Origin: Thiobacillus denitrificans DSM 12475
GTDB lineage: Bacteria; Pseudomonadota; Gammaproteobacteria; Burkholderiales; Thiobacillaceae
Length of the DNA: 64,000 nt
Assembly: GCF_000376425.1 (NCBI RefSeq)
Contig: NZ_AQWL01000013.1
Span: 25,447-89,446 of the forward strand
Direction of reading: 5' to 3'
Shown here: positions 3,366 to 58,480 of the stretch, one piece after another
How the letters are laid out: each line of letters starts with the position of its first letter
Position numbering within the stretch: position 1 is the stretch's first letter
Notes under the pieces: model-generated
What the model was told of the DNA's origin: nothing
Seen by the model: only the letters and a program-made list of their open reading frames with translations
The model's database searches: none
Position numbers and translations under genes: made by a program

Positions 3366-3368
3366 ACC

Positions 3369-39489: not shown

Positions 39490-39581
39490 TGTAAAAACAT
39501 ACGCATATAAATCAATGTTAATTGCGCTTCAACTGCTTATTTGCCACAATATTGCCACATCTTGAGGGGATTGGCAAAAAA

Positions 39582-40928: not shown

Positions 40929-41978
40929 ATGTATCCAAATAATTGGGGGAATTTCTTGCACACGATTAATCACGCAATTATCCATAAGCTTGTCAAAGCA
41001 AAACATGGCAAGGCTGCCGTAGTCGAACGTGCAGAAGTCCTATCGATTACCGACCCAGTCACGAAATTAGTGTTGGCTATTCATGACTTGTATGCCAGCA
41101 AAGCCAGTAAAGGGTATGGACGTTTTGAGGCGGACGAAGTCAACTATCCTTCCGCGTCAATTCTGAGAAATGTGTTCCTCCAGAAGAAAATCGGCTTCTT
41201 TGAGGCATCAAAACTTCTGCTCAGTGTGCTCGCCAGCAAAGCTGGGGCGGTAGCTCTTGCTACGGGCGGGTACGTGCTCATGGCACATGTCACCAACGAA
41301 GCTGGAGTAAGTTGGTTTATCGTGGCCATCATCAATAACGTCAATGGCAGTGTGATTAATGATGCCACGCTTGAGGTGGTGGATGCTATGCACGTCGATA
41401 TTGAGAACCTGCGTGTTGCAGGACGGGTGAATCTAACGGACTGGGCAAAAGTGGATGCTGATATTCGCTATATCGGATTTCTCAAGCAGCGTGGCGAAGT
41501 CGCAGACTACTTTAAGGTTTTTCTTGGTTGTAACGAACTGATAGCTGACACAGAGGAAACCAAGAAACTGGTAAATGCACTGAAGAAATTTGCCAAGAGC
41601 CAAGGACTCGATCAAAAACAGGAAGAAGAGTTTTTACAATCGGCATTCAATTATTGTAATGAGCGTAACAAAAATGATGAGCCGCTAAGCTTGGAGGCTT
41701 TGAGTAACATGGCTTGGCCGAATGACCCGCAGACGTTGCAGGCGGCTTTCGTCGAAGGTGATGTACAGATTTCAGATGGCTTTGTTCCAGACGGTCGTAG
41801 CATCAAGGCGCTCATGCGAATGAAGTACAAAACCGAATATTGGACTATAGATATTGATCGCCATGCACTTTCTCAAGGATATGCACATTACAACCAAAAA
41901 AAGGGCGAACTTACCCTATTAAAGCTGCCCGCCAAACTCAAGGAAGAGTTGGATTACGAGATGAAAGATGATGCCTAA
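40929..41978 (+). CDS. NdpA/YejK-like nucleoid-associated protein
   Basis: A 349-residue protein related to the 37-kDa nucleoid-associated family (NdpA/YejK). Recognisable blocks are HAIIHKLVKA near the start, LSVLASKAGAVALATGGYVLMAHV, VVDAMHVDIENLRVAGRVNLTDW, IRYIGFLKQRGEVADYFKVFLGC and a C-terminal YWTIDIDRHALSQG...LTLLKLPAKL. The ATG at 40929 lacks a good ribosome site; a TTG at 40956 follows GGGGGAA and gives an N-terminus closer to the family, so it may be the true start. Base composition is clearly lower in GC than the backbone. It overlaps the next gene by 11 bases. Confidence 0.82.
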   Translation: MYPNNWGNFLHTINHAIIHKLVKAKHGKAAVVERAEVLSITDPVTKLVLAIHDLYASKASKGYGRFEADEVNYPSASILRNVFLQKKIGFFEASKLLLSVLASKAGAVALATGGYVLMAHVTNEAGVSWFIVAIINNVNGSVINDATLEVVDAMHVDIENLRVAGRVNLTDWAKVDADIRYIGFLKQRGEVADYFKVFLGCNELIADTEETKKLVNALKKFAKSQGLDQKQEEEFLQSAFNYCNERNKNDEPLSLEALSNMAWPNDPQTLQAAFVEGDVQISDGFVPDGRSIKALMRMKYKTEYWTIDIDRHALSQGYAHYNQKKGELTLLKLPAKLKEELDYEMKDDA

Positions 41979-43185
41979 GGCAACCTGGGATGACCTGACA
42001 CGGGTTGTCCGGGGTCTAACCGAACTTCAGGAAGGCCCTCCAGTTCAGGGGGGCTTCTCAATTTCTACAGACGCTGATCTCAATGCGTTAAAGGCTTGTA
42101 TCGCGTCAAGCCACGACACCAATCTTACCCTCCAAAATGAGGAAGACCCTGCGACATTCAAAGTTGGTCAATCAGTAAAAGTTTCAGTGTCACCACGGCT
42201 TGGATTCGGTTTGCTTAAGCATGACATCGGAGACATGCTTGAGGGATCACGAAAGGCTCGTATTAAGGAACCTTCTTTTTTCCTGATGGGTGAAGGACTG
42301 TCCAGCACCGATCACGTTGACGACGACCATGCCATTAGCCGTTATCGAGTCGTTCTGCAATTTATTCAAGTTCTTAAGCAATCTGCTGCATTTTTAGACC
42401 AAGACGAACCATCACTCATATTCATTAAAGAGGGGAAATTTGAGCTTCCGATTGAGTATGGCGCTGAAGACATAAAAAATCTTCCGGTTCAAGAAGTCAA
42501 AAAACTGCTTGTCATTCTTCCCGAAGACATCCACGAAAAACAGTGCGCCTCGATACTAGCCGAGGCGGTGATAACACTCACCGAGCATCTGGCTAGCGAT
42601 CAGCGATTCAAATATCTCTTAGCCAATGCCAGCGAGCTAAGGAAGAAATTTGAGCAGGGCTATCAACTCTTCGCTGCGGGGTTTTCATATGAAAAAGTTC
42701 GTGACCAGGTCGAGGCTGCGCGCGTCGAATATAGCGGCAAGATACACAAAGTTTTCTCAGACATTCAAAATCAATTGCTGAGCATTCCGGTTGCAACGAT
42801 TGTTGTTGCAACTCAAATGAAGGACGCAAAAATACTTGGCTATGAGTTCTGGGTAAATACGGCAGTGTTGGTTGGCTGCTGGATTTTTGCCATTCTCATG
42901 ATATTTTTATTGCACAACCAGTCACACACGCTAGGCGTACTGCGCGACGAAATTAACAGACAGAAGCGCCAGCTTAGTAAGGAATATGCAGCAGTCGCAC
43001 ATTCCTTTACCAACACATTTGGGTACTTGTCACGCCGTGCTCTTACGCAGCGTGTCATTCTTTGGGTGATCGACGGATTAGTGGTGCTTGGACTTCTGTT
43101 GTCGCATTTTTTCTATCTCAAGCTTACGTCTCCAGCAAGAGACTGGGCGATTGGATATATCCCGAGTTTGGCGTCTTGGTTATAA
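41968..43185 (+). CDS. Two-TM protein coupled to the NdpA-like gene, unknown function
   Basis: A 405-residue protein I do not recognise. The first 280 residues look soluble and mostly helical (for example IVVAT... preceded by a charged coiled coil near residues 215-265). Two membrane helices follow at about 291-312 (WVNTAVLVGCWIFAILMIFLL) and 365-388 (VILWVIDGLVVLGLLLSHFFYL), separated by a basic helical linker with RDEINRQKRQLSKEY. It overlaps the NdpA-like gene by 11 bases, so the two are made together. Low GC marks it as acquired. A membrane effector paired with a DNA-binding sensor is a reasonable guess only. Confidence 0.7.
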   Translation: MMPKATWDDLTRVVRGLTELQEGPPVQGGFSISTDADLNALKACIASSHDTNLTLQNEEDPATFKVGQSVKVSVSPRLGFGLLKHDIGDMLEGSRKARIKEPSFFLMGEGLSSTDHVDDDHAISRYRVVLQFIQVLKQSAAFLDQDEPSLIFIKEGKFELPIEYGAEDIKNLPVQEVKKLLVILPEDIHEKQCASILAEAVITLTEHLASDQRFKYLLANASELRKKFEQGYQLFAAGFSYEKVRDQVEAARVEYSGKIHKVFSDIQNQLLSIPVATIVVATQMKDAKILGYEFWVNTAVLVGCWIFAILMIFLLHNQSHTLGVLRDEINRQKRQLSKEYAAVAHSFTNTFGYLSRRALTQRVILWVIDGLVVLGLLLSHFFYLKLTSPARDWAIGYIPSLASWL

Positions 43186-43259
43186 AGAATTGCCAGACGT
43201 TCGAGCGTTGAAAATTTCGATTGCGCTAGAATCTCTGCAAAGTCGAACACCTGCTTACG

Positions 43260-46058
43260 TTAAGCAAGCAGCTCCACCAGCGAACTCACCACCCTGAACC
43301 GCACTTCCTCAAAGTTCTTGAAGTGCCGCTTACCGCATTCGATCTTCAAGTCCTCGATGGGGCGTAACAGGTCGAGCTGAACATGATCACCGCTGCCAGT
43401 TTTTTTGGTTTCGGCCACGAAGTAGAGCGTTTTATCGTTGCGGTAGGCCAGCGCCCAATCGGGGTTGTACGCGCCGACTGGCGTTTCGATCTGGAACCAG
43501 CGCGGCAGCTTGATGTAAAACAGCACGTCGTCGTTGTCTTCGCAGGCTTGGGCGAAAAGGCGCTCAGGCGCTGAGTTCGAGTCGATGACGATATGCGAGA
43601 ACAGGGTTTTCTCGGGATTCTGAAAACCCTCTTTATTCGCTGGAAACACGTTGGATGCGAATACTTCCATCAGGTCGTCGTTCTCGAAGCGCCGCATTTC
43701 GTAGCATGCCTCGCCCTGCTTGATGTATTTGACGCCGCTGCCTTCCGAACCGTCGCCATACACCAGAAACTCGCGCTTCGCGGCATTGACCAGTTCCGCC
43801 GCATGGTCGATGAATGCCTGCGGGTTGTTGACCGCCTCGCCCAACCTGCCGCATTCCATCAGGATGCGCGCCACAGTGGACTTGGCCAGCCCGGTTTTGG
43901 CCTGCACCTGGGCGACAAAATCCGGCATCACGTATTTGGCTTCGACGGTCTGCGTGCGATAACCGGTCTGCTTGCCCGCCACGCCGTCTGCGCCGATGCT
44001 GATTTCGGCACGCGTCAGCGCCACTTTGGGGCGTTCGATGAGCGGCATTTTGCTCTGGATACGTTGAGCCGCCCTGACAATCAACTCGCTGGTTTTATAG
44101 TCCACCCGGTAGCGCGTGCGGGCGCGAATTTTCTCCCACAGCGCCAGAAACCGCTGGTCGGTGGCGTAGCCTTTGCGTAGGCGTACCGTCACCTTGTCGC
44201 GCTCGTTTTTCACCATGTCGCGTTTGAACCGCACACCCGCTTCGACCATCTCGGTCTGCAATTGGTTGGCAAAATCTTCGTAGCTTTCGTTGGCAATCAC
44301 GGTCAGGCGATTGATCGCCGGGTCGCGCACCCGCTCGCCATCCTTATTCACGCACAGGCGCAGGCCACGGCCTATTTCCTGGCGCTTTTTGATCTCTGAA
44401 CTCGACTCGGCCAGCGTGCAAATTTGGAACACGTTCGGGTTGTCCCACCCCTCGCGCAGCGCCGAATGGCTGAAGATGAACGCCAGCGGCTCGGCCAAAT
44501 CCAGCAGCCTTTCCTTGTCGCGCATAATCAGCTCGAAGGCGCTCGCCTCGGCTTCGGCATTGGTTTTGCCGGTTAAGGTCTCGAACGGCGAAACCGTGCG
44601 TTTGTCCTGCGAAAAATAGCCGTTGTGAACGCGGGCGGCATCGTGCAGCAGCAGCCCGGCAAACTCTGGCAGCGCTTGGTGCTGCGCGTAAATCTCCTCA
44701 AACCATTCGGCAAATTTACCGTGTGGCGTGGTGCCATCCTCGGCATACACCCGGTAGTTCGCCACCCGGTCGATGAAAAACACCGACAGCACCTTGATTC
44801 CCATTGGGTGCAATCGCTGCGCTTTCTCGAAGTGGCGGCGCACCGTCGCCTCGATCTGCAAGCGCAAAATCGTATCGGTCAGCGCGCCGTGCGGCTGACC
44901 CTGGCGCACCTTCACGTCGTTGGCAAAGGTGATGAAACCCTCGCCTGCGTCGATCTCGTTGACGATGAAGCCGTCGCGATAAATCTCGCGCTGGTTCGAC
45001 AGCGCATACAAGTCATCGCCATTCTTCACCGTTAGACTTTTCTTCGCCGGGCCGTTTGTCTGATTGACCCACACCGACAGCTTCGCCGACACGCTACGCT
45101 TGCCGCATTTGAAGCCTTCGACTTCGACAAACGCCTGATTCGCATCTTTCAGTTCGATTACCGAATCCACGCCAATCTGCTTTACCAACCCCAGCTCGTA
45201 GGCGCGCACCGGGTCGAGCGAATAAATCAGGTTGTAGGCGCGGCGATGCGTCGCTGAATAGCGCAGCGTACACATCGGGTTGAGCCGCGTAATCGCCAAC
45301 TTTCGATTATCGGTTTCCAGATTCTGCGGCTCGTCCAGAATCACAATCGGGTGCGCCGCCTGAATGAATTCGATAGGCTTTAGCCCCGTCTCGCGCACCT
45401 GGTTGATGACATTGCCACGGTTCTTTTTCTTGGGCTTGCCCGACGTGGCAGCGGTGTTCGCCTCGGTCGTGTCCTTGGCAAACGCGTCGATATTGATGAC
45501 CAGAATCTGAATCGCGTCCGACAGCGCAAAGTTGCGCAATTGATTCACCCGACCCGAGTCGTACACCGTGAATTCCACGCGCTCGTAGTCGTACAGAGTC
45601 TGAAAATGCTCGCGGGTGATTTTCAGGCTGGAAAGCACGCCCTCGCGAATCGCCACCGACGGCACCACGATGACAAATTTCTTGAAGCCGTAAGTCTTGG
45701 ACAGCTCATACACCGTGCGCAAGTAAACGTAAGTCTTGCCCGTGCCGGTTTCCATCTCCACCGTAAAATTGGGGAACGCGCCCACCGGAGTGTCATCTTC
45801 CAGCGTTAGGGTTTCCAGTGCAGCGGAAGCGTCGATGCCATGCGTTTTTTGTACCGCATTCAGGTTCAACAGCCACTGCGCATCGGTCAGCACGCGTTGG
45901 TTTGCCACACCAGTCTCGGATAGCGCCAGGCTCGACAGCCCTTCGTCCGCCATCGCCACCCCGCGTTGCGAAGCGTCCGGCTGGCCCGCGAACAAGCTCA
46001 CCACCGCACGGATGGCTTCAAGCTGATAGTCCTGATTCGCGTCGAATTGCAGCTTCAC
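43260..46058 (-). CDS. res: Type III restriction-modification enzyme, Res subunit
   Basis: A 932-residue restriction subunit. The GTG at 46058 (VKLQFDANQDYQLEAIRAVVSLFAGQ) is chosen because GGAGG lies just upstream and the preceding gene stops two bases away. The superfamily 2 helicase part has Walker A (METGTGKTYVYLR), a DEPQ Walker B (VILDEPQNLE) and IGRGLRLCVN. The C-terminal nuclease shows a PD-ExK pattern (NPDWALAYRNDKTLYFVAETKKTGS). It is the last gene of the operon, separated from its mod partner by three unrelated genes. Confidence 0.93.
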   Translation of the reverse strand: MKLQFDANQDYQLEAIRAVVSLFAGQPDASQRGVAMADEGLSSLALSETGVANQRVLTDAQWLLNLNAVQKTHGIDASAALETLTLEDDTPVGAFPNFTVEMETGTGKTYVYLRTVYELSKTYGFKKFVIVVPSVAIREGVLSSLKITREHFQTLYDYERVEFTVYDSGRVNQLRNFALSDAIQILVINIDAFAKDTTEANTAATSGKPKKKNRGNVINQVRETGLKPIEFIQAAHPIVILDEPQNLETDNRKLAITRLNPMCTLRYSATHRRAYNLIYSLDPVRAYELGLVKQIGVDSVIELKDANQAFVEVEGFKCGKRSVSAKLSVWVNQTNGPAKKSLTVKNGDDLYALSNQREIYRDGFIVNEIDAGEGFITFANDVKVRQGQPHGALTDTILRLQIEATVRRHFEKAQRLHPMGIKVLSVFFIDRVANYRVYAEDGTTPHGKFAEWFEEIYAQHQALPEFAGLLLHDAARVHNGYFSQDKRTVSPFETLTGKTNAEAEASAFELIMRDKERLLDLAEPLAFIFSHSALREGWDNPNVFQICTLAESSSEIKKRQEIGRGLRLCVNKDGERVRDPAINRLTVIANESYEDFANQLQTEMVEAGVRFKRDMVKNERDKVTVRLRKGYATDQRFLALWEKIRARTRYRVDYKTSELIVRAAQRIQSKMPLIERPKVALTRAEISIGADGVAGKQTGYRTQTVEAKYVMPDFVAQVQAKTGLAKSTVARILMECGRLGEAVNNPQAFIDHAAELVNAAKREFLVYGDGSEGSGVKYIKQGEACYEMRRFENDDLMEVFASNVFPANKEGFQNPEKTLFSHIVIDSNSAPERLFAQACEDNDDVLFYIKLPRWFQIETPVGAYNPDWALAYRNDKTLYFVAETKKTGSGDHVQLDLLRPIEDLKIECGKRHFKNFEEVRFRVVSSLVELLA

Positions 46059-46060
46059 CC

Positions 46061-46867
46061 TCAAGCCTCCGGCACGGCTATGTAGGGGTGTCCGCCACTC
46101 ATACACCGTATCCATGAGCTGAGAAGTAAGTCTTTGTGCTCCCCGATCCAAATTTGCATCACTGAATCGAGAGCTGGCCGTCGGCCTTCCATTCTCTCAA
46201 ATGGATCAATTCGATATTTGGCGATAGTATTTTGACTCTTTCCTTCAACTACATGTACATGGGGTACGCCATGCTCTAGAGGTGCTGAATACATAAGGAT
46301 TAAATATCCCTCCACATCTCCAACGCGACTGGATTGAGAGATTTTTTTCCCCCAATCAGTCAAGGATTGACCCCAGTGTGTGACGTGCTCGATACAGGAA
46401 AGATGTTCGATCTCACAGTCGGATTCTGTCAGCGCGCCTTGTTCATCCGCGGACATCTCTTTTGCTGTTACTAAATGGGCAAGCCAATCGGAATTGGCAA
46501 TTGGAAAGCTGCACGCCCATGTTTCTTGAAGATGTGCGAAGGTCAATCCGATGGCTGACCTATCGCCTAGGTACACTTCGCGAAGAAGCTCGCCCGGTTG
46601 ATTAATTAAACGCATCTTCGTTTGCAAACGCCGGTATTCCTCGGTGCCGACCCATTCTTTGATCCACACCTTCATCGGTTTCCCTGCGACCGTATCGTCC
46701 AACCATCCGGGCGAAAAGCATAGCCGGTATCCGGGCTGATATTTCATTACCTCTTTGAGCCCTTCTACCCATAACTTTGCCGCATCGAACCATGGCTGCA
46801 ATGCCGTAGACGCAACATCCGGGGCAGGGAGAGAATGTTCATTGAGATAGATCGCAAAATCAACCAT
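46061..46867 (-). CDS. Unknown protein with C-terminal DUF4160-like region
   Basis: A 268-residue protein between the AAA ATPase and res. The first 180 residues match nothing I know. The C-terminal 70 residues contain HGVPHVHVVEGKSQ, IAKYRID, and EHKDLLLSSW, which resemble the PHFHV...IDI...W layout of DUF4160, a small domain often found in toxin-antitoxin or defence contexts. The two histidines could bind metal or a nucleotide (inference). It starts nine bases after the ATPase stop and ends two bases before the Res start, so it is made as part of the operon. Likely a functional partner of the ATPase and DUF262 protein. Confidence 0.65.
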   Translation of the reverse strand: MVDFAIYLNEHSLPAPDVASTALQPWFDAAKLWVEGLKEVMKYQPGYRLCFSPGWLDDTVAGKPMKVWIKEWVGTEEYRRLQTKMRLINQPGELLREVYLGDRSAIGLTFAHLQETWACSFPIANSDWLAHLVTAKEMSADEQGALTESDCEIEHLSCIEHVTHWGQSLTDWGKKISQSSRVGDVEGYLILMYSAPLEHGVPHVHVVEGKSQNTIAKYRIDPFERMEGRRPALDSVMQIWIGEHKDLLLSSWIRCMSGGHPYIAVPEA

Positions 46868-46876
46868 ACCCCGGCC

Positions 46877-48004
46877 TCAATCCAGAAGCGCATCAAGGCT
46901 TTTTTCCCACTGATCGAAAAACCCCTCCGGCCAGTTGGTTAATTGCCCGTCGGGCAATATGGAAGGCAATTCCACATAACAGTCCCCGCTGGGCACATCC
47001 CGTGTGAAGTAGCACAGCCTCACATCGTCGGCCTTCAGTGAGCCTTTTTTGACGGCAAGGCGGATACCATTCAACACATGGTCGCTATGGGTCTCTACCA
47101 AAATCTGTACGCCATCGGCGGCGCAAAGGCCCAGCAACTCGCCCATCTTCGCCTGACCCTGGGGGTGCAGATGGGCCTCGGGATTCTCGATTAGCAGCAA
47201 GGCACCGGCTGGTGCGGCCAGACAGGCCACCAGAATGGGCAGACTGTAGGTGAGGCCAAACCCAACATGGGTTGGCCGGTAAAAACGTGGTTCCAGACCA
47301 CGGGCTTGTCCGACATACTGAAATTGAAGGATCACCTCGTCCGTGCCTTTGAGCAGCTCTGCCCGCAAGCGAGCACCGGGGCTGATCTGCTGCAACCATC
47401 CGGCGACTTGATCCAGCAATTGGGGCGTCGGCGCGATCTTGGCCCACATGGCGTCATCCAATGCAGCGCACTCTTTCGTGCAACGGCGTTTTTCCGAAAC
47501 AGGCTGATCTCTGTTGCTGGCAAGAAAATCTGCCGTGAACTCCCCGTGACTACCTAACAAGCCGTCTTGCCGCGCTTGTTGATCTGCCTGGGGATAGAGG
47601 GTGCGAGGGACGATGCGGTCCGCTTGTAGATATTGAAAATGGGGGTTTACCGCAAATCCATGAGGGGTAGAAGGCGACTCGATGAACTCCAGTTGGTTGG
47701 CTTCAGGCAGTACTTTGCACACCCAGCGATACTCCGTGTCACCCTCCAGGACTGACACCGTGATGGTCTCGTCTTTGGCGCCCTCACTCAAAACGTCCAT
47801 GCCCTGACCGAGGGCAACGAGGGGGCCACCGAGCTGCATGCCATGACCTTGCCCGACCTGATATGACTGGCGTATGGCCGCGAGGCTCTGCAAAACCGTG
47901 CTTTTGCCCGAGCCATTCAGGCCAGCCAGCATCGTTAGTGCCGCCAAAGGCAGGTCCAGATCCCGAGCGGCCTTGAAATTGTTCAAGTGAATACGATCAA
48001 GCAT
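46877..48004 (-). CDS. AAA ATPase with C-terminal DUF3696 (OLD/RecF-like)
   Basis: A 375-residue ABC/SMC-type ATPase. The ATG at 48004 (MLDRIHLNNFKAARDLDLPL) begins like RecF-type proteins and follows GAGG. Walker A is GLNGSGKST; Walker B is LLLIENPEAHLHPQGQAKMGELL; the following ILVETHSDHVLNGIR is the D-loop/H-loop block. The last 40 residues (LPDGQLTNWPEGFFDQWEKSLDALL) match DUF3696. There is no TOPRIM nuclease after it, unlike OLD. It overlaps the DUF262 gene by eight bases. Confidence 0.88.
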   Translation of the reverse strand: MLDRIHLNNFKAARDLDLPLAALTMLAGLNGSGKSTVLQSLAAIRQSYQVGQGHGMQLGGPLVALGQGMDVLSEGAKDETITVSVLEGDTEYRWVCKVLPEANQLEFIESPSTPHGFAVNPHFQYLQADRIVPRTLYPQADQQARQDGLLGSHGEFTADFLASNRDQPVSEKRRCTKECAALDDAMWAKIAPTPQLLDQVAGWLQQISPGARLRAELLKGTDEVILQFQYVGQARGLEPRFYRPTHVGFGLTYSLPILVACLAAPAGALLLIENPEAHLHPQGQAKMGELLGLCAADGVQILVETHSDHVLNGIRLAVKKGSLKADDVRLCYFTRDVPSGDCYVELPSILPDGQLTNWPEGFFDQWEKSLDALLD

Positions 48005-49223
48005 GGAGCACCTCGTCAAAAATCGCGTTTATCACCTCAAGCCGTTTGTTGGATGCAAATCCTTTGCCGGTGGCGTAAAGCAGGGCACTAGTAAAGGCAT
48101 AATCGCTAGAAAACTTCTGGCCGAATTTTTCTATAACTTGCCCCGAACGTTCTGCCAGGGCTTCGATTTCCGCGTCAGTGCGATGCCCCAAGGCGACCGC
48201 CTCGGTTTCAAACAGGCCGCGATTGATCGGTCGCCGCGACTCATTGGGTTTAGAGTATTTGCGGAAGGCCATCCGACCGAAGACACGGGGCGCGCTCTTC
48301 ATCGCACGATCAAATGCCACCTCTATCGCTTGCCATGCTTGTTCGCTCGAACCCACCGTGCGTTTTTCAACGAACTCATTTAAGAAATCGTCCAGATTCT
48401 CATCCGGTTGCCGCTTCACCTCACGAGGCATGGAGTAAAGAGCAGCAAAGCGAAGAACTAATTCGTGGTCCTCCAATCGTTCCCCTTTAATTTTTCTTTC
48501 TGTGGCTGAAAGGAAATTTCTACTTGCCGCCATCTGTCGAATGTACTCGCGCCACTTGCCGGGATAGATGGCATTGCGGATTTCCTGAGCTTTGAGGGGC
48601 AGACCGCCTTGGTTGATGCGAGAAAAGATATTGAATTTGACATTGGCAGGAGTCCCGTGACGAATGACATGCAAGGTCAATTCAGTTTCCATAATGCGCC
48701 GTTGCAGCGGTCGAGGCAGGTCTTCGTAAACCTTGCCATCCAACTCCGTCTTAAGGGATTGTAGGCCTGTAAGCCGGAGGGGATTGAGTTTGGTCTTTAA
48801 TACCTTGTTCAAGCTACTGACCTTCACGAAGTGGGCAATAGCGCACAAGCGTTGCAGCCCATCTACCACTTGGTAATGTCCGTCTTTATCTTCGGATACA
48901 TAGAGGGATGGGATGGGAATACGTAACAGCATGGACTCGATCAGGCCGCTTTTTCGTGCATCACTCCATAGATTCGCTCGGCGCTGAAAATCTGGGGAAA
49001 GATCCATTTCTCCATAGCCAAGACGGGCCATGAGTAAATCCACTGTTCGCTGGTGGGTGATGACGTCAATCAGCTTCGGGTCGAAGGGGGCGCGAATTTC
49101 CCCGGCATCATCCGCAGGTTCTGCCTCCAAGCCACTGCCAGTGCTATCGGAAGTCAGTTCCTCCAGCGGCGCTGCCTCATCATTATTGGAAACTTCAATT
49201 TTTTCATCATTGTTTGGCGTCAT
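47997..49223 (-). CDS. DUF262-domain protein (ParB-like / GmrSD-N type)
   Basis: A 408-residue protein with an acidic 45-residue start and a DUF262 domain: DLSPDFQRRANLWSDARKSGLIESMLLRIPIPSLYV and the hallmark VVDGLQRLCAI (DGxQR). In this family the DGxQR motif is part of an NTP-binding/nuclease site related to the GmrSD type IV restriction enzyme; no DUF1524 HNH domain follows here, so it is a stand-alone form. It starts nine bases before the mod stop codon side (mod ends at 49233) and overlaps the ATPase gene, so it belongs to the operon. Confidence 0.87.
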   Translation of the reverse strand: MTPNNDEKIEVSNNDEAAPLEELTSDSTGSGLEAEPADDAGEIRAPFDPKLIDVITHQRTVDLLMARLGYGEMDLSPDFQRRANLWSDARKSGLIESMLLRIPIPSLYVSEDKDGHYQVVDGLQRLCAIAHFVKVSSLNKVLKTKLNPLRLTGLQSLKTELDGKVYEDLPRPLQRRIMETELTLHVIRHGTPANVKFNIFSRINQGGLPLKAQEIRNAIYPGKWREYIRQMAASRNFLSATERKIKGERLEDHELVLRFAALYSMPREVKRQPDENLDDFLNEFVEKRTVGSSEQAWQAIEVAFDRAMKSAPRVFGRMAFRKYSKPNESRRPINRGLFETEAVALGHRTDAEIEALAERSGQVIEKFGQKFSSDYAFTSALLYATGKGFASNKRLEVINAIFDEVLHA

Positions 49224-49232
49224 TGTCCGCTC

Positions 49233-51197
49233 CTAAATGCAAGTAAACCGGATGCCAGCGTCGCGGCACTGCAAGTCCAGATTGCTTTTGAGCATGTCCG
49301 AATCCTGGAACACCCCGTCGATGACGATGATCTCGCGTGGCTTCATCGCCACCAGCGGGTCGATCATCGCCTCAGCAAAAGACTCCAGCACAAACAGCAT
49401 TTTGCGTTCGTGGATGGCGAACACCTTGCCGTCCTCCACCTCCAGCGTTTCGACCGGCGTCGTCAGTTCCTGGCCGAACTTCAGGAGCAGCTCGTAGAAC
49501 ATGTCCTCGACCTGTGCGTCTTCTTTTTCGCCCTTGGCGAAGAGCTGGATTTGCTCGGCGAGTTGCTCAGGCGTGTCGATGAAGTCGCCGCGCCATTGCT
49601 TGAAGTTGGAAGGAGTGAGGCGGAAGGATTTGAAGCCCAAGCCTAGCTGGGGCGGCGTAGCAAGGTCGGCCTTGCTCGCGATGTGCTGAATTGCTTTACT
49701 GATTCGGGCGCGTGCTATGTCTGCTATGGTCGAAAAACCTGCTTTTTGAATAGTCTCGTCTTCTACTGGCTCTGGTAGCTGAATTGCAACAAACCGACGC
49801 TGGCCTCCATCTCTGGAATTCTGTTCAAGCACAGCGTGGGATGTAGTTGCCGAGCCCGCAAAAAAATCCATGGCGATACAGCTCTCATCATTGGAATCAG
49901 TCGCCATTTCAACAAACTGTCGGATGACCTCGTCGTCCTTCGGGTAGTCAAAGAAGGAGCCCCCCAAGAATTTCTCCAAGCGTTCAGACGCCGAACGAGC
50001 CGGCTGATAGAAAACGCTTTGTGGTGTCAGGGTGTCGGTTTCATGGAGATACCGACGCACCATGATGCTAATCGATGAAATGAAACTGATGCGCTGTTGC
50101 TCGACGAGCTTACTGAATTCGACTTGGTCAAATGCCCAGCCGCGATTCGCGCGTAGCGGAATCTCCGCGCCAGTCTTAGGATTTATTAGCTTGAACTTGC
50201 GTCCACCTGGGGCAGTTGGATCGTCTTCTTTATATACGCCGTTCTTGTCGATGTATCGGAAACGACGATTGGCAAACGAGGGCGTCGCTTTATTGGCGCG
50301 ATACCACGCTGCAAGGTCGTTTGATGCTGCGTCAAAGTCGTCGCCATGTTGCAGCTTCAGGCGCTCGACCTCGCGCAAGATCGGAGCGACCCCATCTTTG
50401 GCAAGTGCCCATACTTTGGGCACCGATGAACGGAAACGGGCAAACACCAAGACATACTCATGGTTCACGCCGATTTGATCGGCTGTGTTCTTCGATGCGC
50501 CTTCCCAGACCATCTGGGCAATGAAGTTTTCTTCCCCGAATACCTCATTCATCACCCCCCGAAGGTTATGCACCTCGTTGTCGTCGCACGAGACGAAAAT
50601 CACCCCGTCCTCGCGCAACAGGTTGCGTGCGATGTACAGCCTCGGCAACATCATCGAAAGCCAGTTGCTGTGATAGTGGCCGTTCTCTTTGCTGTTCTTG
50701 CGAAAGAAACCCTCGCGCATCAGCGTGCCGTCGTCATCGAGTTCGTTGAGACGGCGCAGGTAGTCCTCCTTGCTTTCCTGAAAGCGGTCGGGGTAGATGA
50801 AGCTGTCCGAGCCGGTGTTGTACGGCGGGTCGATGTAAATCAGCTTGACCTTGCCGAAGTAGGCTTTCTGCAAGACCTTGAGTACTTCGAGATTTTCGCC
50901 TTCGATGAAGACGTGTTGCGCGTCGTCGAAATTGACCGACTTGTCGCGCTCGGGCCGCAGCGTGGCGGTGCTGGGGGTTTGCAGCACTTTGTAGGCGTTG
51001 GCTTTGCCCGCCCAGGTGAGCGCGTAGCGTTCGCCGCTTTCGATGACGGCGGCTTCGCCCAACGCGCGTTTGAGCGCGGCCACGTCGAGTTTCCCCTCGG
51101 TGAAGGCGTCGGGAATCAGCGCGGCCAGTTGCGCGCGCCGTTCGTCGGCAGGGTTAGCGGAGGTGGCCAGGTTGGTATCGTTCTGTGGGTCGCTCAT
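49233..51197 (-). CDS. mod: Type III restriction-modification enzyme, Mod DNA methyltransferase
   Basis: A 654-residue N6-adenine methyltransferase. The catalytic motif DPPYNTGSDSF lies near residue 125 and the AdoMet-binding MDFFAGSATTSHAV comes later, the beta-class order of type III Mod. The large insert between them is the target-recognition region. It starts with an ATG overlapping the stop of the small HTH gene by four bases. Mod would methylate and also guide the Res subunit 40 kDa-plus farther down the operon. Confidence 0.94.
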   Translation of the reverse strand: MSDPQNDTNLATSANPADERRAQLAALIPDAFTEGKLDVAALKRALGEAAVIESGERYALTWAGKANAYKVLQTPSTATLRPERDKSVNFDDAQHVFIEGENLEVLKVLQKAYFGKVKLIYIDPPYNTGSDSFIYPDRFQESKEDYLRRLNELDDDGTLMREGFFRKNSKENGHYHSNWLSMMLPRLYIARNLLREDGVIFVSCDDNEVHNLRGVMNEVFGEENFIAQMVWEGASKNTADQIGVNHEYVLVFARFRSSVPKVWALAKDGVAPILREVERLKLQHGDDFDAASNDLAAWYRANKATPSFANRRFRYIDKNGVYKEDDPTAPGGRKFKLINPKTGAEIPLRANRGWAFDQVEFSKLVEQQRISFISSISIMVRRYLHETDTLTPQSVFYQPARSASERLEKFLGGSFFDYPKDDEVIRQFVEMATDSNDESCIAMDFFAGSATTSHAVLEQNSRDGGQRRFVAIQLPEPVEDETIQKAGFSTIADIARARISKAIQHIASKADLATPPQLGLGFKSFRLTPSNFKQWRGDFIDTPEQLAEQIQLFAKGEKEDAQVEDMFYELLLKFGQELTTPVETLEVEDGKVFAIHERKMLFVLESFAEAMIDPLVAMKPREIIVIDGVFQDSDMLKSNLDLQCRDAGIRFTCI

Positions 51198-51394
51198 GTT
51201 CTGTCCTGTGCCTTGTCGGCGATCTGCGCCGCTATCCAGCGGTCTAATTCAGTACGGCGAAAACGCCACGTGCCGCCCAGCTTGAAGCCGGGAAGCTGGC
51301 CTTGCTGCACCAGCCGGTAGACGGTTTTCTTGCCCGCCTTCAGATACGCGGCAACTTCATCGAGCGTGAGAATTTCGCCATCGGCTTCGGTCAT
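51194..51394 (-). CDS. Excisionase-family helix-turn-helix protein
   Basis: A 66-residue protein with one MerR/excisionase-type DNA-binding domain: LTLDEVAAYLKAGKKTVYRLVQQGQLPGFKLGGTWRFRRTELDRWI. It is the first gene of the restriction-modification operon and overlaps mod by four bases. In this position it may control the operon, as C-proteins do in type II systems, although the fold here is a different one. An excisionase role for the island is also possible. Confidence 0.85.
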   Translation of the reverse strand: MTEADGEILTLDEVAAYLKAGKKTVYRLVQQGQLPGFKLGGTWRFRRTELDRWIAAQIADKAQDRT

Positions 51395-51506
51395 GGTCTG
51401 GCAGCTTGGTTAGTCAGTTGTGGCGGAGTGTTCCTAAGTCTGGTCAATTTTGCCATACGTGGGCGCATTAAGCCCAAACCGGGTTGCACGAACCCACCCC
51501 ATGCAA

Positions 51507-51528
51507 GATTTTCGCGTCCGCGAAAATC
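51507..51528. repeat. Palindrome copy a (TTTTCGCG-TC-CGCGAAAA)
   Basis: Perfect ten-base arms GATTTTCGCG and CGCGAAAATC around TC. This is the longest of six copies; it sits at the left edge of the plasmid-like DNA, 63 bases before the integrase fragment. Confidence 0.9.
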
Positions 51529-51590
51529 AGACCGTGCTGTGGGGCGCTGTTTGTACCCTGTTTGTGCCAAATAACGGCGCGAAGCCTATT

Positions 51591-51621
51591 GGCAGTTGAA
51601 ACCGCCATGCGCCGGGGCGAA
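51591..51621 (+). pseudogene. Fragment of a second tyrosine integrase gene
   Basis: These 31 bases match 40205-40235 inside the complete integrase gene at 30 of 31 positions and encode the same AVETAMRRGE around the catalytic Arg. Neither the upstream nor the downstream integrase sequence is present. It is a remnant of a related integrase left by recombination at this spot. Confidence 0.8.
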
Positions 51622-51837
51622 GTGAATGACGCCGACGAAACGGTTCGAGCCTACCTGCTTCAGTTGGCCGCTCTTGGACGCAAGCCGGTCGTGGCCGAGT
51701 ACGACGCGGCCAAGGCGTGGATCGAGGGCCGTGGCGCGCGGATGTCCGAGCAGGGGAAGATCGAGCAGGCACGGGACGCCGGTGCGGAATGGTCGAGGCG
51801 ATGTGGCTATTCACGGAGAATTCATCATGAAATTTGA
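51622..51837 (+). CDS. Small hypothetical protein joined to the integrase fragment
   Basis: A 71-residue frame from a GTG at 51622 (VNDADETVRAYLLQLAALGRKPVVAEYDAAKAWIEGRG). It continues in frame from the integrase fragment, so it may be a chimeric tail rather than a gene. The composition is plausible for a plasmid protein, and it ends just before the long non-coding repeat. No family was recognised. Confidence 0.35.
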   Translation: MNDADETVRAYLLQLAALGRKPVVAEYDAAKAWIEGRGARMSEQGKIEQARDAGAEWSRRCGYSRRIHHEI

Positions 51838-51839
51838 GA

Positions 51840-52226
51840 TGCGAACCGCTCCTCAATCAACATGCAGTTATTCAGGCCATGCCTTTTGCCGGGATACGGA
51901 GTGATGCCCGCTTGAGCGGGCATCAGGGTTACCGCCCCGGCTCCTACCGGCAAACCCGAAGCGGTGCTTCGGGCAAGGGCTACATGACCTTCTAGGGGCC
52001 GTACAGACAGCGCAACCGAAGGTTAGGCTTCCATGTGGGTGAGGTGTTTGGGGTGGCTCTTGAGCTGGACGCGTAGCGTCGAGCGTGCGGTAGTGGGGTT
52101 AAGCCCAGCGGCGTAGGGGGTGTTTCGTGGCACGGACGTGGTTGCTCCCGGTGGCTTTTTACCGGGAGCGTTCCGGCTGCAAAACGACTCACGCCCCTGC
52201 TTGAGCGTAGTCAAGTGTTGGCCTGC
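51840..52226 (+). repeat. Long structured non-coding repeat, copy A
   Basis: About 387 bases nearly matching 63309-63694 in the same orientation. It has conserved hairpins: GATGCCCGC/GCGGGCATC, CCCGAAGC-GGT-GCTTCGGG, GACGC-GTA-GCGTC, GCTCCCGGT/ACCGGGAGC and TTGA/TCAA near the end. No open frame is conserved between copies. One stem shows a compensatory T-A to C-G change relative to copy B. Confidence 0.85.
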
Positions 52227-52278
52227 AAGAGGGCCAGCGGCCAGTCGCAACGCGACCAAGGCGAATAGCCCCGGCCGT

Positions 52279-52626
52279 TCAGCCACCCAGGACGGCCGCG
52301 CGGATCGCGGCGACGTGCTCATCTCCGGTCAGCTCGCCGGCGATGTAACGGCGGCTGATCGCCTCTACCTCGTGCGACAGCGTAAACCCCTCAAGCTCGA
52401 TGCTTGCCCGCGCGGAGTCGATAGCTTTCTGGCGCGCAGCTCGCTCCCGATCATCGATAGCGGGATGGTCTGATTTCAGGATAGCGTTCACCGCGCCTGC
52501 GCGACGTGACTGCAACTCGTCCACAAGCTCTGACACCCCTCCGATCGCGCGAGCCAAATCCGAGCGGGCTTCCGCCGTCGCTTTCCTAAGCTCTGTAGTG
52601 AGTTTTGCCAGTCTCTCTGTCCTCAT
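52279..52626 (-). CDS. VbhA-like antitoxin-domain protein 1
   Basis: A 115-residue protein started at the ATG at 52626 after GGAGG. The C-terminal region RQKAIDSARASIELEGFTLSHEVEAISRRYIAGELTGDEHVAAIRAAV resembles the VbhA antitoxin domain; SIELEG fits the SxxxEG inhibitory motif that blocks Fic-domain AMP-transferases. The first 45 residues form a basic coiled coil (RLAKLTTELRKATAEARSDLARAI). No Fic toxin is present in the window. It is paralogous to the protein at 55050-55358. Confidence 0.7.
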   Translation of the reverse strand: MRTERLAKLTTELRKATAEARSDLARAIGGVSELVDELQSRRAGAVNAILKSDHPAIDDRERAARQKAIDSARASIELEGFTLSHEVEAISRRYIAGELTGDEHVAAIRAAVLGG

Positions 52627-53679: not shown

Positions 53680-53967
53680 CTACCCTCTAACCGGTGGCCA
53701 TTGCCGCGCCGTGTGCAACACGCGAAGGACGCGCACCAAGTCGCCGACCACGTCATAGACTAAGACGTAATGCCGATGCGCCACCAGCTCGCGAGTGCCA
53801 ACGATGCGGCCAAGTCGGCCAAGGTCGGGAAGATCGACCAAGCGCGAAGCCTTCTCCGAAAACAGCTCATCGATGGCCAGAGCGGCGGCCGGGTTGTCGG
53901 CCTCGATGTAGTCATAGATTTCGTCACGATCTTGGATCGCCTCTAGCGTCCAAAACAGTTTCATCAT
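53680..53967 (-). CDS. RelE/ParE-family toxin
   Basis: A 95-residue toxin of the RelE/ParE superfamily. It opens KLFWTLEAIQDRDEIYDYIEADNP and has the family block LGRLGRIVGTRELVAHRHYVLVYDVVGDLVRVLRVLHTARQWP. It starts inside the end of the antitoxin gene with a four-base overlap. Family members act as ribosome-dependent mRNA nucleases (RelE) or gyrase poisons (ParE); the sequence alone does not decide. Confidence 0.92.
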   Translation of the reverse strand: MMKLFWTLEAIQDRDEIYDYIEADNPAAALAIDELFSEKASRLVDLPDLGRLGRIVGTRELVAHRHYVLVYDVVGDLVRVLRVLHTARQWPPVRG

Positions 53968-54251
53968 TCGGAGGCTTCAAGCCGGCGACGTGTTGCCGCC
54001 CGCTTGGCCGCAAACTTGGCTTCGACCTCAACCGCCGGGATCAGGTTGCCGGCATTCGCCGAATCCAGGCCGATTTGCACCTGGCGACGGAACCAAGCGT
54101 CATGCTCGGCCGTTTCCTGTTGCTGCCGCACGAAATCGCGCATGAAGTCGCGTAGGAGCTGCGCGGCGTTGCGGTCGCGGCTTTTGGCTGCGTTGGAGAA
54201 CTCGGATTTCAAGGATTCATCGACCCGGAAAGTAAAGGTTGCCTCGCTCAT
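53964..54251 (-). CDS. Antitoxin of the RelE/ParE pair
   Basis: A 95-residue protein started at the ATG at 54251, after GAGGG. The N-terminus (SEATFTFRVDESLKSEFSNAAKSRDRNAAQLLRDFMRDFV) is a ribbon-helix-helix DNA-binding fold like RelB/DinJ. The acidic, flexible C-terminal half would wrap the toxin. It is the first gene of the pair and probably represses it through the palindrome just upstream. Confidence 0.9.
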   Translation of the reverse strand: MSEATFTFRVDESLKSEFSNAAKSRDRNAAQLLRDFMRDFVRQQQETAEHDAWFRRQVQIGLDSANAGNLIPAVEVEAKFAAKRAATRRRLEASE

Positions 54252-54264
54252 GGTGCTGCCCTCA

Positions 54265-54275
54265 TGTGTTACACA
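54265..54275. promoter_or_regulatory. Candidate operator of the toxin-antitoxin pair
   Basis: TGTGT-T-ACACA is a perfect 11-base palindrome 14 bases upstream of the antitoxin ATG. A longer GTGCT...AGCAC inverted repeat flanks it. RHH antitoxins usually bind such sites. Confidence 0.45.
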
Positions 54276-54367
54276 GTAAGTACATGGTAGCACATTGCCC
54301 GGCGCGCTGAAATTGGGGGCGTCTCAGAATTCGGAAAATCATCGTACGTTGTGCGCACTCCCCAGGG

Positions 54368-55370: not shown

Positions 55371-57995
55371 CTATCGTTCATAGCCGCGCGGCTTAGGTGC
55401 GGGTGCGGGTGCGGGTGCGGGTGCGGGTGCGGGTTGCGGTGTGCGCTCCGGCGCCGGCGTCGCTGGTTGCTTGGGTGCCTTCGCCTTCTCGGCCTTCTCG
55501 CGCTCGCTGGTAATGAAGGCTTTGCCGCGGGCTTGTAGCTCGCCGAGCTCGGCGCGGCGGCGCTGCAATTCGTCGTTCATGGCCTTGCTGTCGAACTCGA
55601 CACGCAAGCCGGTTTTTAGCGCGGCCTCGATGACTTGCCGCTTGAATTTCTCGCTGCCCTCGATCTTCAAGCCCGGCCCGAATTTCTGGACGGCCAGGCG
55701 CAAGCCTGCCTCCACGGCTTGGCTGTTATTGACGGTGGCCACGGTCACGCGCTGGCCCGAGTCGATCACCAGCGCCCGGCGCTTGGCCTGGTCGGCGTAG
55801 TAGGTGACATTCCCGGCCCGGTCGATGGAATAGACCAAGTTGCGCGCCAGTTGCGCGACCTGATCGCTCTCGCGCTTGCGGCTGGTGCTGCCCTCGATGG
55901 TGTTGGCCTCGGCGACGGGTGCCGGTGTCGTATTAGCATCGCGTTGGCGGCGCAGCTCAGCCAAGGCGGCCTCATCTCCGTGGTTCGCACGGTCGGCCAG
56001 GAAGACGTGGTAACGCGCCTGGTAGGTGCGCATTCCGTATTTCTCCTTGAGATGCTGGTGTTCCTCTTTGATGGCTTCCCGCAAGGCCATGTCCTTGGTG
56101 ACGCGCTCCATACGGGCGATGGACAAGGTGGCTTTGCGCTCTGTCCCGCTCTTGCTGCGGTCGGCCTGCAAGGCGCGGCGCTCGGCCTGGTAGTCGTCGC
56201 GGATCGTGGCGCGGCGCTCACGCTCGCTCTGGCGTTGCGCGACCCATTCGATGGCCTTCTGCTTGGCCTGCGCGGGCTGCGCCTCGCGGAAGGCATGCCA
56301 AAGCTCCCGGCGCGGTGCTGGCCGAGCCTCGGCCAGCTCGCGGCCTTGCTGCGCGGCATACACCTGGCGCAAAATCGGCGCGGCCTCGGTGAATGAAAGG
56401 CGCACTTCTTGGGTGAGGAAGTCAGACACATTGAGATTGCGGGGGCCGGCCTTGATGCGGTCGCCGCCGTCCTTACCCTTCGTGACTTCGTACTTTTCAG
56501 GGATGACGCCGTGTGTCTTCGAGAGGTGCGCCAGTAGGCGGCTGGCGTCAAGCTCACGCTTGATCTGCGCGAACTCGGAAAGGTGCGCAGCCTTGGCCTC
56601 GGTCTTGCGCTCGCGCGCCTCGGCCAGTAGCTGGCCGGTCACGCTGTCGGCGTCTCGCCGGTCGCGCGGCTGCGGCACTGCCCGGCTTACTTGTTGATCT
56701 GCGCTTTGATCACGGCCAAGTCGTCGGCCAAGGGCTGCAACAGCGCGGCTAGCTCGTCGATCAGCGAGGTTTCGGCGGGCTTGTTCAGTGTCTCCAACAG
56801 CTCGGCCAGTTGATTGGATATTGCGGCCTGCTGCTCTGAGATTGTTAGCAATATGGGCAACAATTCGGCGGCTGTCGGTTCCTCGGTCGGCTGCATTTTC
56901 GCGTCCGCGAAAATCTCGGCGCTGCTCGTCGGTTCGGTCATGGTCGGTTTCCTTGCGGTGCTTGGTGTAAAAGGTCGCGGCCCGCTCATCCAGCATCGCG
57001 CGCTTGGCATCTCGATCGGCGCTGCGATAGCTCGCGTACAACTTGCGGTTGCCGCTGTTCATGTATTTCAGTTCGGCCGCCCGCACCTCGCGCCACTCCT
57101 GCAGGCGCTCAGCAATATCGGACGGACTCGGGCGGGGCGCTTTGGCTTCTTCGTACTTTGCCCGGATTTCAACGGCCAGCTTTTGCCGCTTTTCAGCGGC
57201 AGGCATCTCGATGAATTCACGGCTGAAAACATACTCTTTCAGATTCACGCCCTTGTTCGCGCCCTCTGGCATCACGTTGAGATATTCGCCAGCCTTGCCT
57301 GCGTTGCGGGTCTTGGTGTCGCCATGCTTGGCAACGATGGCCCGGAACTGGTCGTAGTCGGTAACACCCTTGTCCAGCACGCCGGACAAGATGCGCGCTT
57401 TCAGGTCATGGCTTGCGCCCTCGAAATAATCGCCCTTGTAGCGGGAAATAATCGCGCTCTCGTCGGTGAATTCAATGCGCCGGTTATCTTTTGGGCTGGC
57501 AAGTCCAAACTTCGCATTGATATGTTCCTGGAACGCTTCAAGAAACTTGGTTTGCTGGTCAACCTTGCCAAACGGGTTTAGATTCTTTCCGCTTAAAAGG
57601 TTGTATTCAGGAATGACAATATGAATATGCGGCTTGCGCTCGATCAGCTCTCCGGTTTTCTGATTGGTATAGCTCTTTAATTTTGGCAAGTGCGCTTCAG
57701 CATAGAAGTTATATTCATCGCCTTCATAGGCCGTCATGACGAACTTCTTAAAGTCGTCAGTGATTGCATGCAATTTGTCCCAGCCGATTTCGTCCTCTTT
57801 GAAAGCCAGCGTGATATGCAAATAACGCTCGCCCTCTTTTTCCATGCCTTTGATAATCGTATCGGTCAACTCTAAATCGCCGTCAAGGATTACCCGCTCA
57901 TCCAGCTCGTCACGGGTAAATTCCCGGCCAGCCTTTTGACCATTCGCTAAGTATTCGGCTATGCCTTCGCTGCCACCCGTGATCCTAACCAGCAT
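55371..57995 (-). CDS. Conjugative relaxase with C-terminal LPD7 domain
   Basis: An 874-residue relaxase that would nick oriT and lead the strand into the recipient. The N-terminal nuclease has the metal-binding HIH of KPHIHIVIPEYN (residues 123-125), with His102 in AEAHLPKL and Tyr15 as candidate nucleophile. An Arg/Ala/Asp-rich linker (about 350-470) coincides with a nested gene. The C-terminus has an LPD7-like block (VEAGLRLAVQKFGPGLKIEGSEKFKRQVIEAALKTGLRVEF) and a Pro-Ala repeat. It overlaps the accessory gene by 11 bases. Confidence 0.9.
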   Translation of the reverse strand: MLVRITGGSEGIAEYLANGQKAGREFTRDELDERVILDGDLELTDTIIKGMEKEGERYLHITLAFKEDEIGWDKLHAITDDFKKFVMTAYEGDEYNFYAEAHLPKLKSYTNQKTGELIERKPHIHIVIPEYNLLSGKNLNPFGKVDQQTKFLEAFQEHINAKFGLASPKDNRRIEFTDESAIISRYKGDYFEGASHDLKARILSGVLDKGVTDYDQFRAIVAKHGDTKTRNAGKAGEYLNVMPEGANKGVNLKEYVFSREFIEMPAAEKRQKLAVEIRAKYEEAKAPRPSPSDIAERLQEWREVRAAELKYMNSGNRKLYASYRSADRDAKRAMLDERAATFYTKHRKETDHDRTDEQRRDFRGRENAADRGTDSRRIVAHIANNLRAAGRNIQSTGRAVGDTEQARRNLADRRASRAVAALGRRLGRDQSADQQVSRAVPQPRDRRDADSVTGQLLAEARERKTEAKAAHLSEFAQIKRELDASRLLAHLSKTHGVIPEKYEVTKGKDGGDRIKAGPRNLNVSDFLTQEVRLSFTEAAPILRQVYAAQQGRELAEARPAPRRELWHAFREAQPAQAKQKAIEWVAQRQSERERRATIRDDYQAERRALQADRSKSGTERKATLSIARMERVTKDMALREAIKEEHQHLKEKYGMRTYQARYHVFLADRANHGDEAALAELRRQRDANTTPAPVAEANTIEGSTSRKRESDQVAQLARNLVYSIDRAGNVTYYADQAKRRALVIDSGQRVTVATVNNSQAVEAGLRLAVQKFGPGLKIEGSEKFKRQVIEAALKTGLRVEFDSKAMNDELQRRRAELGELQARGKAFITSEREKAEKAKAPKQPATPAPERTPQPAPAPAPAPAPAPKPRGYER
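55396..55431. repeat. Six-copy GGTGCG hexanucleotide repeat
   Basis: Six tandem GGTGCG units encode the Pro-Ala repeat near the relaxase C-terminus. Changes in copy number would keep the frame and only change the length of the tail. Confidence 0.9.
56687..56941 (-). CDS. Gene nested in another frame of the relaxase gene
   Basis: An 84-residue acidic, helical protein starting at the ATG at 56941 after a good AAGGA site (MTEPTSSAEIFADAKMQPTEEPTAAELLPILLTI...LAELLETLNKPAETSLIDELAALLQPLADDLAVIKAQINK). It lies wholly inside the relaxase gene in a different frame, where the relaxase reads as a low-complexity linker. The arrangement recalls mobB inside mobA of RSF1010. The heptad-like Leu/Ile pattern suggests a coiled coil. 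The function is unknown, and overlap with a real gene lowers certainty. Confidence 0.5.
   Translation of the reverse strand: MTEPTSSAEIFADAKMQPTEEPTAAELLPILLTISEQQAAISNQLAELLETLNKPAETSLIDELAALLQPLADDLAVIKAQINK
56896..56913. repeat. Palindrome copy d, inside the relaxase and nested gene
   Basis: Arms TTTTCGCG and CGCGAAAA around TC. The nested frame reads IFADAK and the relaxase frame reads DFRGREN across it, both open. Confidence 0.9.
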
Positions 57996-58350
57996 CTTTG
58001 ATTGCAGCTTTCATGTAATGCGCCAGGCCATGAAGATCGGCCAAGATACGGGAATAGGTGTCTTCTGAGACAACCCCAGCCAAGTGATCGGCGTTGGCCC
58101 GGTAGGCTAGCTGGTTAATGTTGTTGCTAGCCTTGTTGAACAGGTACAGCAGGCGGCCCCACTCCGGGCTAGCCTTCGGGCGGGCGACGATCTGCGTCCG
58201 GTTGGTCAAGACCGCTTCGCGGAAAAACTTGGATGGCGTCAGGCCAGACGCCTTGACCTTCGCCTGATAGGCGGCATGGTCAGCGTCGGTCAGTCGGAAG
58301 CTAACCGGCCTGGTTAGCTTCTGCGCGTCGTCCTTGGTCTTACTGATCAT
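57985..58350 (-). CDS. MobC/TraJ-like relaxosome accessory protein
   Basis: A 121-residue protein started at the ATG at 58350, which follows GGAG. The N-terminal LTRPVSFRLTDADHAAYQAKVKASGLTPSKFFREAVL is a ribbon-helix-helix fold. The C-terminal LLYLFNKASNNINQLAYRANADHLAG is the NNxNQLA block of MobC-type accessory factors. It would bind beside oriT and help the relaxase open the strand. It overlaps the relaxase start by 11 bases. Confidence 0.85.
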   Translation of the reverse strand: MISKTKDDAQKLTRPVSFRLTDADHAAYQAKVKASGLTPSKFFREAVLTNRTQIVARPKASPEWGRLLYLFNKASNNINQLAYRANADHLAGVVSEDTYSRILADLHGLAHYMKAAIKDAG

Positions 58351-58410
58351 GCACCGGCTCCGTAGGTGGCGCGGCTTGTAGCCGCTGTCTGGCGCGTCAG
58401 CGCCGGGTTT

Positions 58411-58480
58411 CAAAGGGACACCCTTTGGCACGGGATATTTTGCAGCCCGCGTAGCGGGATGTAAACATATCCGACGTGCC
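58411..58480 (-). other. Candidate origin of transfer (oriT)
   Basis: Three nested palindromes lie just upstream of the mobilisation genes. They are CAAAGGG-ACA-CCCTTTG (58411-58427), the hairpin CCCGC-GTA-GCGGG (58446-58458), and an outer imperfect inverted repeat GGCACG-GGATAT (58427-58438) against ATATCC-GA-CGTGCC (58467-58480). A hairpin followed at nine bases by TATCC resembles the RP4 layout, where the nic core is TATCCTG. Strand and exact nic position are inferred. Confidence 0.6.

Follow-up and report, generated by a model that had tools for sequence, protein, structure and literature searches.

In type III restriction-modification (R-M) systems a methyltransferase gene, mod, and the gene of a helicase-endonuclease, res, form a single operon in which res usually follows mod directly. 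The operon described here, from Thiobacillus denitrificans DSM 12475, carries between these two genes the three genes of another defence system, Menshen (NsnA-NsnB-NsnC). It lies in a stretch of 64,000 nucleotides (nt) of contig NZ_AQWL01000013.1, hereafter the window, to whose positions all coordinates refer.

Menshen comprises three proteins encoded in the order NsnA, NsnB, NsnC with overlaps or short gaps. According to a published review, its defence is abolished when the DUF262 gene is mutated or deleted (PMC10952713). The GmrSD type IV restriction systems pair a DUF262 protein with a DUF1524 nuclease. In the dhiTA toxin-antitoxin system of Dickeya, DhiT, a stand-alone DUF4160 toxin with a DUF2442 antitoxin, is a growth inhibitor in both E. 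coli and Dickeya whose effect DhiA neutralises (PMC8198452). Embedding of a second defence gene in an R-M operon is likewise found in the EcoprrI locus, which encodes PrrC and differs from the window operon in its type IC hsd host and in the activity of PrrC as a tRNA anticodon nuclease; PrrC is triggered by inhibition of the R-M enzyme (PMC12707154).

The operon of the window consists of six open reading frames (ORFs), all on the minus strand and free of internal stops, which form a compact run from 51394 to 43260:

51194..51394, minus strand: HTH_17/excisionase-type small DNA-binding protein (Pfam HTH_17, 5.3e-19)
49233..51197, minus strand: mod, type III DNA methyltransferase (PADLOC MTase_III, 3.2e-168; Pfam N6_N4_Mtase, 6.5e-23)
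47997..49223, minus strand: NsnA, DUF262 (GmrSD_N) protein (PADLOC NsnA PDLC03877, 1.5e-116, residues 21-406; Pfam GmrSD_N, 4.6e-22)
46877..48004, minus strand: NsnB, OLD/RecF-like ATPase with C-terminal DUF3696 (PADLOC NsnB PDLC03878, 4.6e-109; Pfam AAA_21, 1.7e-19, and DUF3696, 1.6e-12)
46316..46867, minus strand: NsnC, N-terminal part, residues 1-184, predicted alpha/beta domain (PADLOC NsnC PDLC03879, 7.4e-11, residues 4-170)
46061..46315, minus strand: NsnC, C-terminal part, residues 185-268, DUF4160, DhiT toxin-like (Pfam DUF4160, 1.3e-07, residues 187-252)
43260..46058, minus strand: res, type III restriction subunit (PADLOC REase_III, 9.8e-267; Pfam RE_endonuc, 8.8e-33, and ResIII, 9.4e-12)

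The trio between mod and res is the already named Menshen anti-phage system, since each of its proteins matches the corresponding PADLOC model (NsnA, NsnB, NsnC) in the same order; the tight spacing of the genes is also that of Menshen. NsnA carries the motif DGLQR, and the ATPase matches the NsnB model over the whole length of the model, with an intact Walker A motif (GLNGSGKS) and an ENPEAHLHP motif. The third protein matches its model over residues 4-170 only, and a second NsnC model at 6.3e-4. A chance overlap of unrelated ORFs is ruled out by the family E-values, and an unnamed system is rejected on the matches of all three proteins to PADLOC models. The operon also lacks the nuclease partner of GmrSD: GmrSD_N was matched on the DUF262 protein only, GmrSD_C was absent from the Pfam matches of all six operon proteins, and NsnA itself has no DUF1524 or HNH match in Pfam. 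A preliminary description of this DNA had taken the trio for a second defence system inserted into the R-M operon and had chosen Menshen for a first comparison; both views are upheld. Its suggestion that the system might be new falls, the trio being a named system with the same gene order, the very outcome that the description had set against its own proposal.

The host operon is itself intact. Mod retains intact DPPY and FFAGSA motifs, and Res combines a helicase with a PD-(D/E)xK-type endonuclease, the helicase and PD-(D/E)xK-like motifs being in place, so that a mod methyltransferase and a res helicase-endonuclease stand in one operon as expected for type III R-M. The gene of the helix-turn-helix (HTH) protein (51394-51194) and mod (51197-49233) overlap by 4 nt, and 9 nt separate mod from the DUF262 gene (49223-47997). 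The longest ORF of the ATPase (48019-46877) opens with a TTG at 48019; its most likely start, judged from the sequence, is the ATG at 48004, which would overlap the DUF262 stop by 8 nt, and a further gap of 9 nt leads to the third gene (46867-46061). The longest ORF of res extends from a TTG at 46151 to 43260. As the N-terminus of homologous Res proteins corresponds to about residue 32 of this ORF, res is most likely to start at the GTG at 46058, 2 nt past the stop of the third gene. With these refined starts the tight six-gene array of the preliminary description (HTH, mod, DUF262, DUF3696 ATPase, DUF4160-like protein, res) stands intact, with overlaps or gaps of 2-9 nt; the range it gave for the operon, 46061..51394, omits res (46058-43260). 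A consensus scan of 42900-52300 returned one promoter-like site (shuffle mean 4.8) and 12 terminator-like sites (shuffle mean 10.9), values that are near or below the shuffle means and therefore uninformative on transcription units. The G+C content changes little across mod, the trio and res.

The distribution of the trio was examined by scanning a genome collection with an NsnA profile, by which at least 538 stretches were found to encode a relative; the best 80 of these were analysed. The co-occurrence of the genes that the preliminary description proposed to check is evident, with NsnB directly downstream of NsnA in 78 of the 80 best loci and a third ORF in 73. Third proteins were scanned in 74 cases, the window included, and 70 of them match the NsnC model PDLC03879. 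The figure of 74 is an upper bound on real NsnC proteins, because in the third-gene alignment (A3) some ORFs of GC-rich contigs are truncated or in the wrong frame (among them L051, L058, L071, L072, and L096). BLAST searches with the Mod and Res of the window detected the combination of mod upstream and res downstream of the trio in none of the 80 best loci, within flanks of about 9 kilobases (kb) and with some loci ending early. The trio is autonomous, as no such placement was seen in these loci, and the idea that it is specific to type III R-M was rejected on the same count. Nor do the flanking ORFs scanned share a common family, the most frequent Pfam match occurring in 3 of 84; N6_N4_Mtase was matched in two of the 84, both in Nitrospira metagenome-assembled genomes (MAGs; loci L121 and L123). 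There, a Mod-like methylase gene lies about 50 nt downstream of NsnC, with no res match in L121 and a weak one in L123.

The trio is also present on mobile replicons. Plasmid records contain an NsnA relative (E<=1e-30) in 22 of 72,556 cases; six loci were retrieved, and in all five that bear annotation the genes for DUF262 and DUF3696 proteins are followed by a third, the order being that of the window. Among 50,697 phage records, an NsnB relative (E<=1e-20) occurs in two, one of them Vibrio phage PQ189377.1 (L276), whose depositors label the trio Menshen NsnA, NsnB, and NsnC; a gene annotated as type II methyltransferase lies ahead of the trio in this phage. Menshen is rare in the own lineage of the window. 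The NsnC model matches 4 of 300 genomes of the same order, own genome included; two of the others have adjoining NsnA and NsnB, and the match in G209 is short and partial. NsnA was detected at E<=1e-50 in 2 of 369 genomes of the same class, again with the own genome. In the family, the NsnA model matches 14 of 118 genomes including the own; the 13 others were taken as other DUF262 systems, with no NsnB among the selected surrounding ORFs.

The position of the trio between mod and res is clean. In L171, from a genome of the same order, the type III operon resembles that of the window in Mod (59% identical) and Res (79%) and differs in having no trio, its mod and res being 10 nt apart with nothing between; the window therefore looks like a clean gain, or L171 like a clean loss. 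The junction was followed in three surveys outside the genome of the window, which cover relatives of the window Mod or Res only and together provide 39 evaluable mod-res pairs. The mod-based survey comprised 13 non-own loci, 10 of them evaluable (L172, with a short mod and no res, and L178 and L181, near contig ends, were left out). The class-wide res-based survey comprised 19, of which 18 were fetched (G722 lies at a contig edge) and 15 were evaluable after removal of L209, L217 and L224, which have no upstream mod on the same strand. The phylum-wide res-based survey added 18, of which 17 were fetched (G958 lies near a contig edge) and 14 were evaluable once L259, L265 and L269, stretches without mod, had been dropped. 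Any ORF of at least 80 amino acids (aa) on the same strand between mod and res was counted as a slot gene, which is a crude rule; part of these ORFs were scanned against Pfam.

One or more such ORFs separate mod from res in 23 of the 39 pairs (3/10 in the mod-based, 10/15 in the class and 10/14 in the phylum survey) and none in 16, so that for this subfamily the earlier statement of a normal adjacency of mod and res goes too far. Extra genes in this slot are thus common among the relatives surveyed, to which the window adds a further example. By Pfam and BLAST, the 23 occupied slots contain RhuM in eight loci (two by BLAST alone, one of those a fragment), Schlafen-type proteins in four (one recognised by BLAST and HATPase only), AAA_21 with DUF4276 in two, and in single loci GmrSD, DUF3368 with a nucleotidyltransferase, Bro-N, DUF3800, AAA with a subtilase, and HAD; in two loci no family was matched in the ORF scanned, and in one (L261) the ORF is transposase-like. 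The locus with the RhuM fragment (L260) holds a HEPN gene and a second mod inside the gap as well, and mod itself is fragmented in L214, L223 and L261. Menshen occurs in none of the 23 occupied slots of relatives, which leaves the window as the only case seen of Menshen in this position. Plasmid loci L184-L188, chosen by annotation and excluded from the 39 pairs, have slots with DUF262-HNH, RhuM, YhcG and GmrSD-like genes, and one empty slot. The latter is on a Cupriavidus taiwanensis plasmid (L188) that carries Menshen-type NsnA/NsnB genes about 8 kb upstream of the mod-res pair. Upstream of the res relative in L209, where no mod was found in the stretch, two ATPase-like ORFs judged from the sequence are each followed by a small ORF (426-4066), and the same genome carries Menshen NsnA/NsnB on another contig (L275).

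The window also departs from Menshen in its third protein, which ends in DUF4160 (32.1 bits, Pfam cut-off 23). Common NsnC proteins terminate in a conserved RIHF...IGYIG-type region, as seen in the alignment, and seven of them scanned singly had no Pfam match above cut-off. The RIHF region is not strictly defining: an Anabaena NsnC of 266 aa (L112:11190-11990) has a C-terminus without it, and its lack in the window therefore does not exclude membership in Menshen. Among the 74 third proteins, DUF4160 was matched in two, the window included, and Gp49-like, a toxin-related family, in one. The second DUF4160-ended protein, from a contig of an uncultured Lamprocystis MAG (L045), is the closest relative among the matches listed. 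Its NsnA, NsnB and NsnC are 72, 78, and 39% identical to those of the window; the locus differs in having no mod or res match within 16.8 kb and an isocitrate lyase gene as its 5' neighbour. Between the two NsnC proteins 46 of 84 aligned residues are conserved in the DUF4160 part against 59 of 176 in the N-terminal part, so the ending is the better conserved.

The core pattern of DUF4160 is kept in comparison with four stand-alone proteins, where its H..H[FVI]H part was built in by the filter requiring that motif (ORFs from 4 of 30 loci were let through), and with eight DUF4160 proteins of viral contigs (8 of 13 viral loci used). DUF4160 was found in 66 of 200 sampled genomes of the same order, own genome included; the genome of the window has no match at E<=0.01 other than that in NsnC. 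The structure predicted with confidence for the window NsnC from a 28-sequence alignment has two parts (mean predicted local distance difference test score, pLDDT, 87.5; predicted template modelling score, pTM, 0.72). The DUF4160 domain is common to this NsnC and DhiT; in the window it forms the C-terminal domain of NsnC, with no adjacent DUF2442 gene.

The operon is surrounded by integrase and conjugation-type genes (integrase, LPD7, NikA-like and TrbL genes in 39522-40676, 55371-58431, and 60956-62005), and for this reason it probably lies within an integrative conjugative-type element:

39522-40676: tyrosine integrase gene
55371-57995: LPD7 protein, whose relaxase match is weak and under the cut-off

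Near the integrase, a gene for an NA37 nucleoid-associated protein (40929-41978) stands directly ahead of one encoding a 405-aa protein (41968-43185), which is convergent with res, has no Pfam or PADLOC match and scores 92.8 bits with the 'anti-phage protein' model NCBIfam NF053869, under its cut-off of 315. At 53680-54293 a ParE toxin gene is overlapped by an upstream ORF, which encodes 109 aa, has no Pfam match and is likely to be the antitoxin of ParE. The HTH protein at the head of the operon is a probable regulator of it, and L184 and L188 have homologues of this protein in front of SNF2-mod-(cargo)-res. The protein scores above the cut-off for MAD1, a model belonging to the MADS defence system (NCBIfam NF047737, 83.8 bits, cut-off 80), yet the operon itself is not MADS.

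The reading that we prefer, with a probability of roughly 0.6, is that of a Menshen variant whose effector is of toxin type and which, as cargo of a type III operon in the neighbourhood of conjugation genes, would act as a second line behind restriction. NsnA, a DUF262 NTPase, and NsnB, an OLD/RecF-like ATPase, would form the sensing and switching part and keep NsnC inactive; upon infection they would release or activate NsnC, whose freed DhiT-like DUF4160 domain may then arrest growth of the infected cell. The shared operon would provide for co-expression and co-transfer of the trio with mod and res.

Several observations weigh against this reading. The review ties Menshen to a predicted OLD nuclease with Toprim in one component and suggests DUF262 as its regulator (PMC10952713), so that NsnB, not NsnC, would be the effector; in the window, the Pfam matches of the six operon proteins contain no Toprim at E up to 1, yet the PADLOC model of NsnB is matched in full. 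The DhiT equivalog of NCBIfam matches NsnC at 2.5e-05 and 24.8 bits, far under its cut-off of 100, and toxicity of the ending is for this reason suggested by the Pfam DUF4160 match. Structural comparison of the DUF4160 part yielded no clear relative, and no separate antitoxin ORF stands beside NsnC, whose neighbours are NsnB and res at gaps of 9 and 2 nt.

Among the alternatives, one with a real though smaller chance of being right holds that the junction of mod and res is no more than a permissive site at which the trio, an ordinary Menshen, arrived by recombination and to which it is functionally untied; it is compatible with the identity of the trio in the preferred reading. It agrees with the diversity of slot contents, which include a HAD hydrolase, DUF3800, a subtilase and a transposase-like ORF, with the autonomy of Menshen elsewhere and with the single occurrence of Menshen in a slot. 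It is less easily reconciled with the frequency among the cargo of families linked to toxins or defence (RhuM 8/23, Schlafen-type 4, AAA with DUF4276 2, GmrSD 1, HEPN or nucleotidyltransferase 2), an argument of limited weight since the function of RhuM is not established. Coupling of the trio to Mod and Res is possible but unsupported. Doubtful is the stronger proposal that in this branch of type III operons the junction is a dedicated docking slot for backup or guard modules (RhuM, Schlafen-type, AAA with DUF4276, GmrSD, HEPN or nucleotidyltransferase genes, and in the window Menshen as a whole) whose occupant is coupled to restriction, so that a failure or blockage of restriction would lead Menshen and its DhiT-type effector to kill or arrest the cell.

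It also appears unlikely that the trio guards the restriction enzyme in the manner of PrrC, NsnC being released and the cell arrested once Res or Mod has been inactivated by a protein of the phage. PrrC, encoded inside the EcoprrI locus, does fire upon inhibition of EcoprrI (PMC12707154), and the slot of relatives is repeatedly occupied by toxin- or defence-like genes; on the other side, Menshen is usually found without mod and res (both flank none of the 80 best loci, some of which end early), and the Lamprocystis locus, the closest Menshen listed, has the same effector without a mod or res match. Similarly improbable is a role of NsnA in recognising modified phage DNA and so complementing the action of Mod and Res on unmodified DNA, a model that draws on the DUF262 proteins with DGxQR in GmrSD, BrxU and SspE, of which BrxU plays such a complementary part to BREX (PMC10952713), and on slots holding a GmrSD_N+GmrSD_C protein (L222) or a GmrSD-like one with a C-terminal match below cut-off (L187), and that is opposed by the lack of a DUF1524 or HNH match on NsnA.

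A trio that appeared to be new has thus turned into a named system, and its third protein can bear a DUF4160 (DhiT) toxin-type ending, which suggests that NsnC is the effector of Menshen. In the majority of the related type III operons, mod and res are separated by further genes. Should such genes prove to depend on the restriction enzyme, type III operons would serve as a chassis for immunity in two layers and the precedent of PrrC would be extended.

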